20,029 bases of DNA, taken from a virus. Shown here in pieces: positions 2,584 through 16,803 of this stretch. The translations under genes were made by a program, and so were the position numbers. The DNA is taken from positions 1 to 20,029 of the IMG/VR virus record IMGVR_UViG_3300023296_001249. The stretch is one strand, 5' to 3'. The notes beneath the pieces were generated by a model that was not told the origin of the DNA, did no database searches, and worked only from the letters and a program-made list of their open reading frames with translations. Position 1 is the first letter of the stretch; each line of letters begins with the position of its first letter.

Positions 2584-4221
2584 TTACTCCGTTTGCCCTT
2601 CGCGATTGACAGGCGGCCGAACCGTTGGCGGCTTGCCGGTGCTCTTGGTGTTGTCCTCAGTCTTCTTGCTGTTCTCCTGGAGTGCTTCGGTGTTCTCGGC
2701 GAGTTTGGCGTCGGTTTGATCCTGCCGGGCTTGCTGGCTTTCCAGCAATGCCCGAAGCGATTCGATTGACCCGGTGAGTTTTTGTGCGTCTTCTGAGTTG
2801 TAGAAAGGGTTCTCTTTGCCCGGTCGATTTTGGTCGAAAGCAGGGTCTTGGCTGAACACCATGCGTTCGCCATCGCCCTGCATCTGTGGCGATGATTTCA
2901 TGTAATACGTCGGCAACATCTGGTCGAGCGCTTCTTGCGCCGGGTCTTTGCCAAACATGTCCATCGCTTCAAACTTCATGGAGCTTGCAGCGCGACTCCA
3001 CCACCAATCGCCAGAATCGCGGCGGAACGTACTGAGAGCTTTGCGGGAAGCGTCTGTGGCAGATCGTCCGAGGTCAGAGTCCTGCGATTGCTTATGCGAA
3101 TCGGCAGCGCGACTAACATCGCCAACAGCTTTGTATGGACTCAGCCCTTGGTCCGCGATCGTGTCCTGTGCTTCCGCCTTCAGTGATGCGTTATCGCCGA
3201 ATGCCAAGAGATTCGACCGGAACAACTGTGCGGCCTTGGAGTCGCGGTCCTTGATCAGCGCCTCAATCGGGCCGAGTGAGACCTTCTCGAAAGAAGCGGA
3301 TGCGAGGAACTTGCTTCCGAGTTCCGGGGAATCCTGCAGTTCTGTGATCCGCTCGCCCATGGTGCGCGTGCGACCATTGGCCTGCTGGAATGATTCGGTC
3401 ATGCCCTCCTTCTCGAAGAAGCCGCGCATCTGCTCGGCCAGCGAGATGGATGATGTGGATGATGTTGCGCCGGTGAAGTCGGCCGAACCGACGGTCATGG
3501 CGGAGAACAGCGCGCCAGCTTCCTGTGGCGTCGCACCCATCTGCACTTGTCCGATGATGGATTTGGGGATGTTCTGCGCCTGTTGCTGCGGGTTCACCAC
3601 GCGAGACAGTGCCCCGATCTTTTGCAGAAAACCCTGATTGACCTCTGCATCTTTGGATTCTGTTGCGGTGCCAAGGTCCAGCAGTGACCCCGCAAAGCCG
3701 CCGATGGCATCAGGATTGGAGTAGTTGACCTTTGCGGACTGGCGCACTGCGGCGGTGGCAGACACTACATCGCCACCCGACGCCGATACCGCGTCCGCCA
3801 TGGCCGCCGCGATGAACTTCTCGTCGACCTTGGTTTCTGTCGCGATGGCACGCGCGTCAGCCAGCGCTTTCACCTTCGTTTCGTCTGATTGACCGCTCAG
3901 ATTCAGCAGCAGGCTTTGCTGCGCGCCCTCCACGGTCATCTGGTACCGCAAGGCCTCTTTCTGCATATCAATTGCGTGACGCCATTCGTCAGAGATACCC
4001 TTAACGGCAGCCATCACGATGCCAGCAGTCGAGGCAATGCCCACAAGCGATGACACGACATCCTTGGCACCACCCACCATCACATCGCCGAACTTCTTCC
4101 CCTTTTCCCCCGTCTTCTCAAAGCCCGCGTCCATCTTCTGCTGTTGGTTGACGACGCGCTGCATCGCTTTGAGCAGGCGTGTCTCATCGCCGGTCAGTTC
4201 AACTGTGACGTTTGCGGCCAT
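2584..4221 (-). CDS. Tail tape measure protein
   Basis: The 545-residue protein is long and largely helical, with a hydrophobic segment near residues 55-75 (VVSSLVGIASTAGIVMAAV) and extended Ala/Gln/Ser-rich helices. The C-terminal 60 residues are a charged coiled coil ending in a Pro-rich tail. These are the traits of tape measure proteins, which fix tail length during assembly and are ejected with the DNA. The gene directly follows the tail assembly chaperone gene, as expected. At the usual ratio of about 0.15 nm per residue the tail would be roughly 80 nm. ATG 4221 starts 3 nt after the frameshifted chaperone stop. There is no strong ribosome binding site, so coupling to the chaperone frame is likely. 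No lytic transglycosylase or peptidase motif is apparent. Confidence 0.8.
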   Translation of the reverse strand: MAANVTVELTGDETRLLKAMQRVVNQQQKMDAGFEKTGEKGKKFGDVMVGGAKDVVSSLVGIASTAGIVMAAVKGISDEWRHAIDMQKEALRYQMTVEGAQQSLLLNLSGQSDETKVKALADARAIATETKVDEKFIAAAMADAVSASGGDVVSATAAVRQSAKVNYSNPDAIGGFAGSLLDLGTATESKDAEVNQGFLQKIGALSRVVNPQQQAQNIPKSIIGQVQMGATPQEAGALFSAMTVGSADFTGATSSTSSISLAEQMRGFFEKEGMTESFQQANGRTRTMGERITELQDSPELGSKFLASASFEKVSLGPIEALIKDRDSKAAQLFRSNLLAFGDNASLKAEAQDTIADQGLSPYKAVGDVSRAADSHKQSQDSDLGRSATDASRKALSTFRRDSGDWWWSRAASSMKFEAMDMFGKDPAQEALDQMLPTYYMKSSPQMQGDGERMVFSQDPAFDQNRPGKENPFYNSEDAQKLTGSIESLRALLESQQARQDQTDAKLAENTEALQENSKKTEDNTKSTGKPPTVRPPVNREGQTE

Positions 4222-4224
4222 GGT

Positions 4225-5075
4225 TCAGCGTTCCCGATTCAATTGGACGAGGTCGGCGAAGGTGGGTCGGTATCCGGGGTGGAGGCCGCTGGCCCAGCGT
4301 CGCCAGGTGAGCCAGCGGCTTCCGCTTTTTTTGATTGCCACGCGGCGAAGGTGGGCATATCGATCACGGCGTTGAGCACGTGCGCCAGCACATCGCGGTT
4401 GAGCAAGCCGAGCATGGAGACTTCTGCCGCACTGACGCGGTAGTTGGCCTGCAGGATGCTGACCGCACTGTCAGCCAGCCCGGCAATGGTGAGGTCGATT
4501 ACCTTGCCGTCCACGGACTCGCCGTCGGCATCGCCTCCGGGGGCCACGCCCATCACCGTGTCGAGCCATCCCTGGCCGATGTCCCAGAGGTATTGCCAGC
4601 GTGCTTCGATGGCGGACTCGGTCCATTGGCCTTCGTCATCGAGGGTCAACCGCTGGGGCAGGCTGATGACCGGGCGGATGTCGTCGCCGGTGATTTCGAA
4701 GGCGCGGGCGACGGGGATGAGCCACTTGTTGCCGTCGGCGAGTTCGACGAGATGGCCCTGCAATTGGCGTGGTCGTGCGAGGTCGGCGGGTGTGGGGGGT
4801 GCGTCGGTGTAGTAGCCGACCCAGACGCCGCTTTCGCTGACGAAGCGGGGGATGCGGTGCCATGTTTGCTTGTCGGGGTAGTAGCCGACGCGGCGGTCGG
4901 TGAGGCTGGTGGCGTCGGCGACGACGTGGCCGGGGCGTTTGTCGGGGCCGCTGTTGCAGCCACATTGCGCGAAGGACCGCGCCTTTTCAAAGGCGTAGCC
5001 GAGTCCTGCCTTGGCGGCGTCCTCGCGCGTGGCGGGCTTGCCGAGGTCGGGCAGGTAGTAGAGAAAGCCGGGCAT
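4225..5075 (-). CDS. Tail assembly chaperone, -1 frameshift product (lambda GT-like)
   Basis: If ribosomes slip back one base on A AAA AAA at 4326-4332, translation continues for 33 more codons to a TGA at 4225-4227, giving about 283 residues. The shifted tail contains SRWLTWRRWASGLHPGY and RPTFADLVQLNRER, rich in Trp, Arg and Leu and far more protein-like than the Ala/Pro/Ser tail of the zero frame. It ends 3 nt before the tape measure ATG. In lambda and many other siphoviruses a G-T fusion made this way links the chaperone to tail tube subunits. The slippery site, stem and open frame are seen directly; actual frameshifting is inferred. Confidence 0.75.
4239..5075 (-). CDS. Tail assembly chaperone, unshifted form (lambda G-like)
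   Basis: The 278-residue product lies between the tail tube protein and the tape measure protein, the position of lambda G/GT chaperones, which coat the tape measure during tail assembly. Residues 1-45 include FAQCGCNSGP; the middle carries strands such as RRVGYYPDKQTWHRI and GVWVGYYTD; residues 190-250 are helical. The last 28 residues after Lys250 are a low-complexity Ala/Pro/Ser/Thr tail, unlike the rest. ATG 5075 has AGGAG 6 nt upstream. The gene contains an A7 slippery run at codons 248-250, so this is probably the major of two products. It is longer than lambda gpG (about 140 residues), and the N-terminal half may be an added domain. Confidence 0.7.
   Translation of the reverse strand: MPGFLYYLPDLGKPATREDAAKAGLGYAFEKARSFAQCGCNSGPDKRPGHVVADATSLTDRRVGYYPDKQTWHRIPRFVSESGVWVGYYTDAPPTPADLARPRQLQGHLVELADGNKWLIPVARAFEITGDDIRPVISLPQRLTLDDEGQWTESAIEARWQYLWDIGQGWLDTVMGVAPGGDADGESVDGKVIDLTIAGLADSAVSILQANYRVSAAEVSMLGLLNRDVLAHVLNAVIDMPTFAAWQSKKAEAAGSPGDAGPAASTPDTDPPSPTSSN
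4285..4332 (-). promoter_or_regulatory. Programmed -1 frameshift signal: A7 site plus stem-loop
   Basis: On the minus strand the zero-frame codons TCA AAA AAA create the heptamer A AAA AAA (4326-4332), a canonical slippery site. After 6 nt (4325-4320), GCCGCTGGC (4319-4311 on the minus strand) can pair perfectly with GCCAGCGGC (4293-4285), a 9-bp stem with a 17-nt loop. The spacer length is in the normal range for -1 stimulatory structures. The signal sits 28 codons before the zero-frame stop of the tail chaperone gene. Confidence 0.75.
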
Positions 5076-5456: not shown

Positions 5457-6380
5457 TTACGGCAGGGCGCTGGTGGTGTCGATGACGATCGGTGCGTTGC
5501 TGCCGTCGTAGCTGGTGGTGATCTGGATGCCGGTCTCGGCGGGCTGATTGCCCTGGGTGCTCTGCGGGTTGGTCACGCGGGCGAGGCCGGCGGCGGTGAG
5601 CAGGATGTGCTCGGCAGTGGCGTCGGCGACGAACGTGCCGCCAGCGGCGCGCTTGCGGAGGTAGATCTCGGTGTTGGCGTGGGTCGCCGCCTTGCCCGAG
5701 AGCGGGACCTTGCTGCTGCTGAACCATTTCGGATCGACGCCGCGAAAGGTGATCATCGGGGCGATGCTGTCGATGGAGATATGGGTTGGCCAGATGTCGC
5801 CGTCGCTGCTGGCGGGCGTGGCGGTGATGCCGAAATCAATCTCCAGCGAACGGATGTGATCGATGGTCACGCCGCCCACGCTGACGGGGCCCAGCGTGAA
5901 GCGCTCGGCGTCGGTCAGGCCGGTGGGCATGCTGACGGTGTCGGCGATCACGACGGGGTCATTGGCACCGTCGTAAATGGTGATGGCCTCATAGCTCAGT
6001 TCGGCGTCCTGCCCGTGGGTGACGGTCAGGCGGCGGGGAATGATCAGACCGTCGTTGACCTTGAGCGAGCGATGAACGCTGCCCGAAGCCCGACCGCCGC
6101 CGGCGGCACGCTTCTGCAGGTAGTAGGTCAGGCCGCCGGTGAGGCCGCCGATGTTGGAGCCGCCCAGGCCGATGCCGGCAAGCCACGCGGCCACGTGCTT
6201 GGTGGTCCAGCGTGAGACGGGGTTTTGCGCGGTGATGGCGGTCCAGCGGTTGTAGACCTCGCCGCTGAGTGCATCGTTAGCGACTTCGGTTTGCGTGTCG
6301 TCGTCGGTTTGGGTGATGCCGCCGAGCAGGGTGCTGTCGACGGTGATTCCGAAAAGGCCGTAGATGTCGGTGATGCTCAT
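5457..6380 (-). CDS. Major tail tube protein
   Basis: The 307-residue protein starts at ATG 6380 with GAGG 5 nt upstream. It is beta-rich, with many Thr, Val, Ile and Asp residues. Two similar stretches stand out: TYYLQKRAAGGGR with a following SVHRSL (about residues 85-106), and EIYLRKRAAGGTF (about 240-252). Two later strands also resemble each other (ITIYDGANDPVVIADT and ITTSYDGSNAPIVIDTT). This suggests an internal duplication, as expected for a tail tube made of two related beta-barrels. Its place after the tail completion genes and before the chaperone and tape measure matches lambda V. A paralogous duplication inside one chain would give hexamer rings with pseudo-twelvefold features, but that is inference. 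Confidence 0.7.
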   Translation of the reverse strand: MSITDIYGLFGITVDSTLLGGITQTDDDTQTEVANDALSGEVYNRWTAITAQNPVSRWTTKHVAAWLAGIGLGGSNIGGLTGGLTYYLQKRAAGGGRASGSVHRSLKVNDGLIIPRRLTVTHGQDAELSYEAITIYDGANDPVVIADTVSMPTGLTDAERFTLGPVSVGGVTIDHIRSLEIDFGITATPASSDGDIWPTHISIDSIAPMITFRGVDPKWFSSSKVPLSGKAATHANTEIYLRKRAAGGTFVADATAEHILLTAAGLARVTNPQSTQGNQPAETGIQITTSYDGSNAPIVIDTTSALP

Positions 6381-14136: not shown

Positions 14137-14680
14137 ATGAAAAATCCGGATGATTCAACTAATCCCGCAAAGCGCGAGACATTCACAGCTTCCTACGGCG
14201 GCGTTCACAGCGTCGAGCAGCCATATCCGAAAGGTGTTGGCCCGTTGGCTTTTCCGCCCGGTGATGACTACGGGGCGATGCTTGATTTTATGGCCTATTG
14301 CGGCAGCAGTTTGGCGGGAAGCTTACAGCTTCATGCAAGCAATCCTGAGTATGGCATGTTGAGCAGCGCGTTGTTTTTCGCCATGCAGATCGAGAAATCT
14401 CATCGCACAATGAATGATGTGACAGCCGATCACAAGAGAGGTTTGGGCGAAGGCGCTGCCGGACGAAGCGGTTGGGCGGCAGGAACTGATTCACTTCTTT
14501 GATGTGTTGGCGGCGCTATACGTCGATTTCGGATGGCTCGAAATTACGAAGGGCCGCAAGCCACCTTTGCCATCCGTCACCATCACGGAGGCGGTCGACA
14601 GGCACTCACTAGACATCGATCACGCGGCGAAGCAGCTCAAGATTGTAGCGGCAAGCCTTGATAATCAGGCCAATAGCTGA
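14137..14680 (+). pseudogene. Only plus-strand gene, apparently frameshifted
   Basis: Starting at ATG 14137 (GGGG 5 nt upstream), the first frame reads MKNPDDSTNPAKRETFTASY and continues with DYGAMLDFMAYCGSS. Later comes SSALFFAMQIEKSHRT, until a stop at 14500-14502. The next frame (+1) is open from 14423 to a TGA at 14678-14680. It reads ITREVWAKALPDEAVGRQEL, then HFFDVLAALYVDFGWLEI and DHAAKQLKIVAASLDN. The change in protein-like character is near 14423-14440, so a single-base insertion (or loss of two) probably splits one gene of about 180 residues. The second part has no usable start of its own. Neither part matches a family I know. Its direction is opposite to all neighbours and its last 44 bp overlap the end of the ABC-GNAT gene. 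A moron or recent insertion is likely. Confidence 0.55.
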
Positions 14681-15764
14681 AGCTCGCCATGCGGGTGCCG
14701 GTGTTGCGGAAGCTGGTGTTGCGGGCGACGTTGGTTTGGGCGCGGCCGCGTCGGGTGATGCGGGCGCAGCGCCATTGGTCGCTGCGGACGAGGCTGGCGA
14801 TCAGGGCCGGGTGGCTGGTGCAGATGCTCACGCGATGGCCGGTGTCGACTTCGATCGCGGCGGCGGCGTTGAGCAGGCGTGAGCCGATGCCCATGCCCTG
14901 ATAATCGGGCAGCACGACCAGGCGGTGAATGATTCGCCTGCCCTTGTGGCCTGCGTTGTTGATCACCGCGCACATCGCCACGAGTGTGCCATCCCACACG
15001 GCGACGTACACCGTAGCCCCGTTGAACATCTTGGCACTCAGATAGTGATGTCGCGCAAAGAGGGGCCATACGTCGCGGCCTTTGTCGGGCTTGCACTGGT
15101 GGATGCTGATCCGAATGTCAGGCCGTGGAAGGCACCCCCTTGCCAGTTGCCGGTTGCTCATGTCGAGCACCCAGTCTGGCTGCAGCCATTCGATCACGTC
15201 GCTGTGGCAGGTGACGGCGACGAAGCGTTTGGCGGCGGTGTGGCCCTTGCGGACGGACTTGGCGACGGCGAACGAGGCGGCCCGGCCCACCTGGCGGTCG
15301 ACGACGCTGGTGAACTCGTCGAACACGACCAGCTCGCGGCCACAGAGCAGGGAGCGGGCGAGGTCGCAGCGGAACTGCTGGCCGTTGCTCAGCAGACGGT
15401 ACGGCAAGACCCACGCCGGCGGGCTGGAGAAGCCCACGGCGTTGAGGGTGGCGACGATCTGGCGGGTTTCGAGCTTGTCATCGAAGCCGTCGATGATGCA
15501 CTTGTCGCGTGGCCATTTGAACTTGCCCACCAGGTCGGCTTTGAAGGCCTCGCGGGCGACGGTGGATTTGCCCGAGCCGGATGGCCCGATGATCGCCCCG
15601 ATCTGCCAGCCCCCGGAAGCAGGATCATCGTCAGCAGACGGGACGCTGACGGCGATGTCGAGGGACGTTTTGGCCTGCAGGTCGAGGTCGAACATGGCGG
15701 CGACCTGATGGACGCGCGGGGTGTCGACGACGTCGGCGGTCAGAGCAATACGGACATCCGGCAT
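14637..15764 (-). CDS. ABC ATPase fused to GNAT acetyltransferase (COG2401 type)
   Basis: ATG 15764 is preferred: GGGG lies 5 nt upstream. The gene overlaps the ParB-like stop by 25 nt. The 375-residue product has an ABC ATPase domain with Walker A GPSGSGKST (60-68), signature-like LSNGQQFRCDLARSLL (125-140), Walker B ELVVFDEF (144-151) and the H-loop His187 in VTCHSDV. It has no membrane segment, so it is not a transporter. Residues 218-375 form a GNAT domain with the acyl-CoA loop RLVVLPDYQGMGIGSRLL (281-298) and HHY (239-241). The same architecture is known as COG2401. Many such phage proteins sit beside ParB-like genes. A Mom-like acyl modification of DNA or protein is conceivable, but the substrate is unknown. 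Confidence 0.8.
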   Translation of the reverse strand: MPDVRIALTADVVDTPRVHQVAAMFDLDLQAKTSLDIAVSVPSADDDPASGGWQIGAIIGPSGSGKSTVAREAFKADLVGKFKWPRDKCIIDGFDDKLETRQIVATLNAVGFSSPPAWVLPYRLLSNGQQFRCDLARSLLCGRELVVFDEFTSVVDRQVGRAASFAVAKSVRKGHTAAKRFVAVTCHSDVIEWLQPDWVLDMSNRQLARGCLPRPDIRISIHQCKPDKGRDVWPLFARHHYLSAKMFNGATVYVAVWDGTLVAMCAVINNAGHKGRRIIHRLVVLPDYQGMGIGSRLLNAAAAIEVDTGHRVSICTSHPALIASLVRSDQWRCARITRRGRAQTNVARNTSFRNTGTRMASFSYWPDYQGLPLQS

Positions 15765-16450
15765 GTGATCCCCCTTTTCTTGAGGTCGGTGAACAGCTCG
15801 TTTTGCTCGGCTTCGGTCTCGCACTGGATGATGATCTCGCGGACGGATTTCACCTCGCGGTCCACGGGCGTGTCGACACTGCCTGCGGCGGCGGAAGCGT
15901 CGAGGTCGGCGAGCATGGCGTCGATTTCGTTTTCGTCAAATCCGGTGAGGGTGGCGTCGTAGTCGGCGGATTGCAGGTCCATCAGCAGCGCCGCCAGGCC
16001 GTCGTCATCCCACTCGCCATCGATCTTGTTGAGGGCGACGTTGAGGGATTTCTCGGCGTTGTCGTCGAGGTCGACGACGGAGACATCGACTTCGGTGATG
16101 CCGAATTCGTTGGTGAGGACGGCAAGGCGCTGGTGGCCGCCGACGAGGTTGCCGGTGCGTTTGTTCCAGATGAGCGGATCGACGTAGGCGAAGGTTTCGA
16201 TGGAGCGTTTGAGGCGGGCGTACTCGTCGTCGCCGGGCTTGAGGGCTTTGCGGGGGTTGTAGGGTGCGGGGTTGATCTGGGTGATGGGGACGGTGGCGAT
16301 GGTGAGGCGGCCGGCGTTGGGATTTTTCGCCGGAGGCTTGGCACGCGGCTTCTTTGGTGGCTTCTTGCGGGAGGGACTGCGCGTCTGCGACGCGGCGCTA
16401 CGCGGGGGCGAGGGGGGTGATGCGTCGGTGATGATGGGTTGTTTGGGCAT
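15740..16450 (-). CDS. ParB/sulfiredoxin-fold protein (phage-type)
   Basis: The 236-residue protein starts at ATG 16450, with AAGGA 8 nt upstream. Residues 1-47 are a Ser/Pro/Lys-rich tail. The ParB N-terminal fold runs from about 50 to 145: VPITQINPAPYNPRKAL, RLKRSIETFAYVDPLIW and NLVGGHQRLAVL, with the GGHQR motif (104-108) typical of ParB/Srx proteins that bind or hydrolyse nucleotides. The rest is acidic and helical, ending IIIQCETEAEQNELFTDL. There is no helix-turn-helix typical of chromosome-partition ParB, so segregation is unlikely. Such phage proteins often lie beside DNA-modifying or ATPase genes. The N-terminal tail carries a repeat shared with the gene at 16803. Confidence 0.75.
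   Translation of the reverse strand: MPKQPIITDASPPSPPRSAASQTRSPSRKKPPKKPRAKPPAKNPNAGRLTIATVPITQINPAPYNPRKALKPGDDEYARLKRSIETFAYVDPLIWNKRTGNLVGGHQRLAVLTNEFGITEVDVSVVDLDDNAEKSLNVALNKIDGEWDDDGLAALLMDLQSADYDATLTGFDENEIDAMLADLDASAAAGSVDTPVDREVKSVREIIIQCETEAEQNELFTDLKKRGITCRMSVLL
16381..16404 (+). repeat. REP-like element inside ParB N-terminal linker, copy 1
   Basis: The 24-bp segment contains GCGTCTGCGACGC (5-bp arms, 3-nt loop) followed by CGCTACGCG. It matches 17033-17056 at 22 of 24 positions. Both copies are read in the same frame, giving the shared peptide RS-A/G-ASQT within Pro/Ser/Thr-rich linkers. Confidence 0.6.
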
Positions 16451-16452
16451 GC

Positions 16453-16803
16453 TCAGATTCCTTCTTCTGTCGAGTTCATCCCGGCCCCCTTGGGCATGAC
16501 GCCGAGGTCTATGTACAGATCGCCTGAAAGAATGATCGTGGCTGCCAAACGTCCATGAGGCTTGCGTGTCCATCCCTTTGCAACCACGCCACCAGCGGTC
16601 AGTGCGATCACTTCAAGCAATTTCGCCGGACTTGCGACGCGCTGCTCGCGCCACGGAATTGCGATAACGTCGAAGTCCTTCTGCATGCTGCCATGAAGGG
16701 CAAGCGCGTAGCCGAGGCGCCTGGCCGCGCGCACCATGTCACGGTAGATGCAGGCGTACCACAGTGGGTTTGTCGTCTTAACGCGCTTGCGTTTCACGGT
16801 CAT
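16453..16803 (-). CDS. Short nucleotidyltransferase-like phage protein
   Basis: The 116-residue protein starts at ATG 16803, overlapping the upstream stop by one base (TGATG). Residues 12-34 form a helix, with MVRAARRLGYALALHGSMQKD crossing into a core strand (shown here as RRLGYALALHGS). The key motif is HGSMQKDFDVIAIPW, which gives G-S then D-x-D, the signature layout of minimal nucleotidyltransferases. A later PHGRLAATIIL strand and YIDLGVMPKG complete the domain. The protein is recognised as a recurrent small phage protein; its activity is not established. The gene is 2 nt from the ParB start, so they are co-translated. It could be a toxin-like or tRNA/nucleotide-modifying enzyme, or have lost activity. 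Confidence 0.65.
   Translation of the reverse strand: MTVKRKRVKTTNPLWYACIYRDMVRAARRLGYALALHGSMQKDFDVIAIPWREQRVASPAKLLEVIALTAGGVVAKGWTRKPHGRLAATIILSGDLYIDLGVMPKGAGMNSTEEGI

Follow-up and report, generated by a model that had tools for sequence, protein, structure and literature searches.

The tail assembly chaperone genes of phages lambda and TP901-1 are decoded with a -1 shift. Each gene yields two proteins that share their N-terminal part, gpG and gpGT in lambda and gpG and gpT in TP901-1 (PMC5009743, PMC4493119). Through their shared part, the proteins bind the tape measure protein; recruitment of the major tail protein falls to the T part, and the proportion of the two products is important (PMC5009743, PMC4493119).

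The window, by which we mean the whole stretch of DNA analysed here, is an entire virus record of 20,029 bases. The phage is siphovirus-like and has relatives in Planctomycetota genomes. It carries a gene whose layout resembles that of the lambda and TP901-1 genes, and the gene very probably encodes a G/GT-type chaperone in which a ribosomal -1 frameshift leads into a conserved tail.

Gene and genome neighbourhood

The chaperone gene has 278 codons, at 5075 to 4242 on the (-) strand, followed by a TGA stop at 4241-4239. It lies between an upstream tail-tube candidate of 307 aa and a tape measure candidate of 545 aa, and this order is repeated in two relatives, L025 and L010. The neighbours are probably the major tail protein and the tape measure protein, as judged from position and size; the tape measure candidate matched nothing in Pfam or PHROG. 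The head genes are lambda-like, with a terminase, a portal and an S49 protease, and there is a weak match to the attachment protein. The coordinates of the features are collected in Table 1.

Table 1. Positions in the window of the chaperone gene, its slip site, its two tails and the neighbouring genes
Feature	Position	Strand	Details
Probable major tail protein	5457..6380	(-)	307 aa; named from position; look-alike proteins at the equivalent place in L025 and L010
Zero-frame gene, G-like tail assembly chaperone	4239..5075	(-)	278 aa; beta-rich N-terminal part, helical C-terminal part, low-confidence tail; pLDDT 90
Slippery heptamer A AAA AAA, zero frame	4326..4332	(-)	Context CAA TCA AAA AAA GCG
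Spacer between slippery site and hairpin	4320..4325	(-)	GCGGAA, 6 nt
Hairpin	4285..4319	(-)	Perfect 9-bp stem; predicted fold extends to 12 bp
Zero-frame tail past the slip site	4239..4325	(-)	28 residues and stop; A/S/P/D/T-rich, unconserved
-1 frame tail, T-like part	4225..4326	(-)	SGSRWLTWRRWASGLHPGYRPTFADLVQLNRER, 33 residues, and stop TGA (4227-4225); leave-one-out E 2.4e-14 in the -1 frame
Next gene, putative tape measure protein	2584..4221	(-)	545 aa, start ATG 4221; named from position and size

AlphaFold2 gave a confident model of the gene product (mean pLDDT 90), built on 30 sequences. A structural search of BFVD returned a single significant viral match, which is annotated 'Tail assembly chaperone'. 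Its E value of 8e-4 is moderate, and its TM score is 0.52 on the target and a low 0.28 on the query. Fold searches of the PDB gave nothing useful, and neither the chaperone gene nor the -1 tail matched Pfam or PHROG. The position of the gene and the fold of its product, and also the head genes of lambda type, favour a G/GT-type tail assembly chaperone, one whose T part is very short.

In L010 (3764-4426) and L025 (3292-3759), a gene that is HK97-gp10-like by eye separates the chaperone gene from the tape measure gene, and the next genes of L049, L051, L053 and L054 resemble it. The HK97-gp10-like gene is thus inserted in some relatives, so the frameshift gene does not always stand immediately before the tape measure gene.

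Elsewhere in the window, positions 14637-15824 on the (-) strand encode an ABC-type ATPase fused to a GNAT acetyltransferase (Acetyltransf_1, 6e-11; ABC_tran, 1e-7). A ParB-N-like protein at 15740-16573 (E 6e-4) adjoins this gene, and the two make an odd pair within the packaging/head module.

Slip site and hairpin

The sequence-only reading had described an in-frame A AAA AAA heptamer, a 6-nt spacer and a perfect 9-bp stem, and all of these are present on the (-) strand. The arms of the 9-bp stem are GCCGCTGGC (4319-4311) and GCCAGCGGC (4293-4285). The 12-bp stem of the predicted fold pairs 4319-4308 with 4296-4285. The heptamer alone proves nothing, because a bare A7 run is expected 0.62 times per window, both strands counted, and at least one is present in 39% of shuffles. 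When a 78-nt stretch containing the hairpin was folded, 1 of 200 dinucleotide shuffles was equally stable (z -2.3), and a 60-nt stretch gave z values of about -3.6 to -4.1. None of the 60-nt stretches sampled elsewhere in the chaperone gene matched its stability.

A stimulatory structure downstream of the slip site is predicted in the window and is inconstant across the family. The hairpin was rejected as a conserved feature: L007, the closest relative, is without it, and most relatives have a run of nine As (A9) with weak or no structure. The route into the -1 frame may therefore differ between members.

Conservation among related genes

The family comprises 49 related genes, the window gene included, and the others come from virus contigs and Planctomycetota genomes. 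The 29 homologs that were aligned are 23-45% identical to the window protein. A tblastn search with the chaperone against 50,697 phage records found no match, i.e. no record of an isolated phage. Two extra scans of virus contigs gave nothing in one case and only a duplicate in the other, and a second class search returned genomes that had already been found.

A slippery site stands at the equivalent 3'-end position in 39 of the 49 genes, with the window and L034 counted. The site is A7 in one gene (the window), A8 in four, A9 in 29, A10 in two, G GGA AAC in two and G GGA AAA in one. A-run sites are thus found in 36 of the 49 genes, and the three members without an A run carry G GGA AAC or G GGA AAA in frame. 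Runs of at least nine As number 31 at the slip site of the relatives, and the remainder of the same 224 kb has none; counted on both strands, it holds 20 A7 runs, two A8 runs and nothing longer. The conservation of the slip site far exceeds chance. Since most relatives have exactly nine As, in all three codon phases, the run length itself is under selection. Two prophage-like copies with A9, L012 and L011/L013, lie in the complete chromosome of Planctomycetes bacterium Pan216 (CP036279.1).

The tail was sought with leave-one-out profiles, where the tested member was omitted from each profile build and L034 was tested apart. Of 38 members, 36 have it in the -1 frame, and none has it in another frame; the two members without a significant match, L020 and L023, gave weak ones. 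A comparison of homologues had been proposed as a check on the slip run and the -1 frame, and the run, the frame and the protein sequence are all kept. In L034 (A8; reverse strand, 1477-2064 and beyond), the tail lies in the +1 frame (E 1.7e-10). An error in sequencing or assembly could explain this, as could slippage by RNA polymerase.

The 10 genes without a slippery site gave no convincing tail match (best E 0.14, in L044), so the site and the tail are either both present or both absent. A tree built from the upstream protein, in which many forks are weakly supported, requires at least 4 changes in presence or absence and at least 12 in the site type. L026 is a strong homolog (E 3e-60) with neither site nor tail, and it runs straight into a gene whose start resembles that of the window's tape measure candidate. 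This is a natural loss, and the tail is therefore not indispensable in all members.

The two tails

Past the slip site, the -1 tail has 28-63 residues across the family and carries the motif W..G..P.YRPT.ADL..L. The recurrence of the W..G..P.YRPT.ADL tail in the -1 frame of the relatives supports the sequence-only reading, which had taken this tail for real protein. The end of the -1 frame 3 nt before the ATG of the next gene (4221) is confirmed, and simple arithmetic returns the two product lengths that had been given, 278 aa in the zero frame and 283 aa in the -1 frame. Such near-equal lengths had been called an unusual variant. They are instead a feature of the whole family, in which the end points of the zero and -1 frames lie 2-46 codons apart (median 24). 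The proposal that the shift swaps one tail for another stands in part: tails of similar length are exchanged, but the zero-frame tail is no second conserved module. Across the family it is unconserved, with 1-40 residues, and its model has low confidence. The zero-frame tail is a filler of the frame up to its stop, left over when there is no slip, and not an alternative domain.

Codon constraint and access to the -1 frame

Two pairs of members were compared over a stretch much of which lies past the zero-frame stop of L007, L021 and L022. In the 28 ungapped codons after the run, the window and L007 differ 5, 6 and 21 times at -1-frame positions 1, 2 and 3, with 14 synonymous and 8 nonsynonymous codon changes when read in the -1 frame, as against 1 and 21 when read in the zero frame. 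The corresponding values for L021 and L022 are 4, 3 and 12 for the three positions, with 9 synonymous and 5 nonsynonymous changes versus 1 and 13. Changes in the -1 frame are thus mostly synonymous, which is the synonymous-site constraint that had been named earlier as support for the shifted frame. Pooled codon-position counts from 54 distant pairs are 0.42, 0.44 and 0.56; because these depend on an alignment guided by the protein, preference is given to the ungapped pairs.

No ATG, GTG or TTG is found upstream of the motif in the -1 frame of 20 of the 38 members. In five A9 members (L004, L007, L017, L020 and L049), the -1 frame is already closed no more than 8 nt from the end of the run. 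In such members, slippage is therefore the only evident entry to the tail.

Alternative explanations

The -1 tail would reach the phage without fusion if it were a separate small overlapping gene or were translated by coupling from an internal start. We regard this as very improbable. One codon in the -1 frame of the window could serve as a start, a GTG located 16 nt before the end of the run, and candidate start codons upstream or inside are present in 18 of the 38 members, but the lack of start codons in the others, together with the frames closed at the run, rejects a separate gene for most members. A separate gene also leaves unexplained why genes with the tail retain a slippery run and those lacking the tail have none. 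Less credible still is that the second frame is the decayed or misassembled end of one long gene, produced by a frameshift mutation or a homopolymer error, or that it arose by chance. Homopolymer runs are error-prone, L034 resembles such a case, and a bare A7 is common enough in shuffled sequence; however, the two-frame layout recurs across dozens of contigs and genomes that were assembled independently, among them the two copies in CP036279.1, and also accompanies the non-homopolymer GGGAAAC sites. A zero-frame fusion of the tail is seen in no homolog, and the conservation of the site rejects a chance A7.

RNA polymerase could also provide the -1 tail by adding an extra A to some transcripts, as occurs in Thermus dnaX and Shigella type III secretion genes. 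We consider this unlikely in the window and give it about even chances in the A9 relatives. Among the A-type members, 31 of 36 have A9 or A10, and the A9 runs occur in every codon phase (14, 9 and 6 in phases 1, 0 and 2), though seven As suffice for a ribosomal heptamer. Runs of nine or more are absent from the rest of the 224 kb, and even if the chance that a run of at least seven reaches nine is given its upper limit of 3/22, p is about 3e-22. Downstream structure is on average weak in the A9 and A10 members, with a mean z of -0.4 versus -2.8 in those with short or GGGAAA sites, a contrast whose p ranges from 0.0004 to 0.10 with the stretch folded and which is offered as a lead only. The +1 tail of L034 is within reach of a polymerase but not of a -1 ribosomal shift, unless that contig holds an error. 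A run of about nine or more As or Ts, as is typical of A9-type transcriptional slippage, is present in 31 relatives, whereas the window has just A7 plus a strong hairpin. In three members an A run is lacking and the site is GGGAAAN; this G GGA AAN form, of the TP901-1 type, points to the ribosome. The two GGGAAAC members have the strongest hairpins (z about -5). Because of these hairpins, and of the A7 and hairpin at the usual distance in the window, the ribosome is the likely agent in both. Longer runs raise reporter frameshifting at whatever level it takes place, from 10% with an A7 cassette to 40% with A9 and 63% with A11 (PMC3711429). An A9 run with weak downstream structure is what polymerase slippage would want, but the effect of run length does not reveal the level. 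In the A9 majority, the polymerase is a live rival. No report of transcriptional slippage in a tail chaperone was found in the literature covered, which is mostly outside the subscription journals. Tentatively, and with somewhat less than even odds, the switch into the -1 frame may have changed hands several times, between the polymerase (A9, little structure) and the ribosome (A7/A8 or GGGAAAC, strong hairpin), with the tail retained as a minimal T part of about 30 residues.

Proposed mechanism

In the window, with its A7 run and hairpin, ribosomal -1 frameshifting is the most likely route. The observed basis consists of the site, the predicted hairpin, the conservation of the slip site and of the -1 protein, the co-occurrence of site and tail, and the position of the gene. 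From these, we infer the occurrence of slippage, its rate, its ribosomal nature in the window phage and the binding roles of the products. Most ribosomes would read to the zero-frame stop, and their product would be G-like, 278 residues long and disordered in its tail. A minority would pause at the hairpin 6 nt past A AAA AAA and slip back by one base with two lysyl-tRNAs. The slipped product would be a 283-residue GT-like protein, and its last 33 residues would form the W..G..P.YRPT.ADL tail. If the roles follow those in lambda and TP901-1, the common part would bind the tape measure protein, the major tail protein would be recruited by the -1 tail, and tail assembly would be sensitive to the proportion of the two forms.

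With these genes, the G/GT frameshift would reach an undescribed, highly divergent phage group of Planctomycetota. A T part of only about 30 residues may suffice, which would provide a small model for asking what T does. The related genes with A7, A8, A9, A10 and GGGAAAC, with and without hairpins, form a series for tests of ribosomal versus transcriptional slippage. They also carry a warning for annotation: the conserved C-terminus of these proteins falls outside the called ORF.

Comparison with known systems

The T part of lambda is long, with about 144 residues. The T-like part here is short, 33 residues in the window and within the family range given above, and both products are therefore about equally long. 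In contrast to lambda and TP901-1, this family has no sequence match to known tail chaperone families, and the window uses A7 and most relatives A9. The TP901-1 site is GGGAAAG (PMC4493119), and three members here have GGGAAAA or GGGAAAC. In the Mu-like siphophage PaMx73, 43 codons separate the T TTT TTC site of ORFs 35/36 from the stop of the zero frame, and the overprinted zero-frame tail is correspondingly long (PMC4378225); the distance here is 28 codons. PaMx73 differs in its slippery site and in its second ORF, which is longer and has its own proposed start. The dnaX gene of Thermus thermophilus and other A9 transcriptional-slippage genes have a nine-A run, as do most of the relatives (PMC3711429, PMC5009743). 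However, dnaX is a cellular gene, and the window has A7 plus a hairpin. The locus thus represents a familiar type of device in a gene family not described before, whose T part is short, whose slip sites are unusually diverse and whose signal varies between phages.
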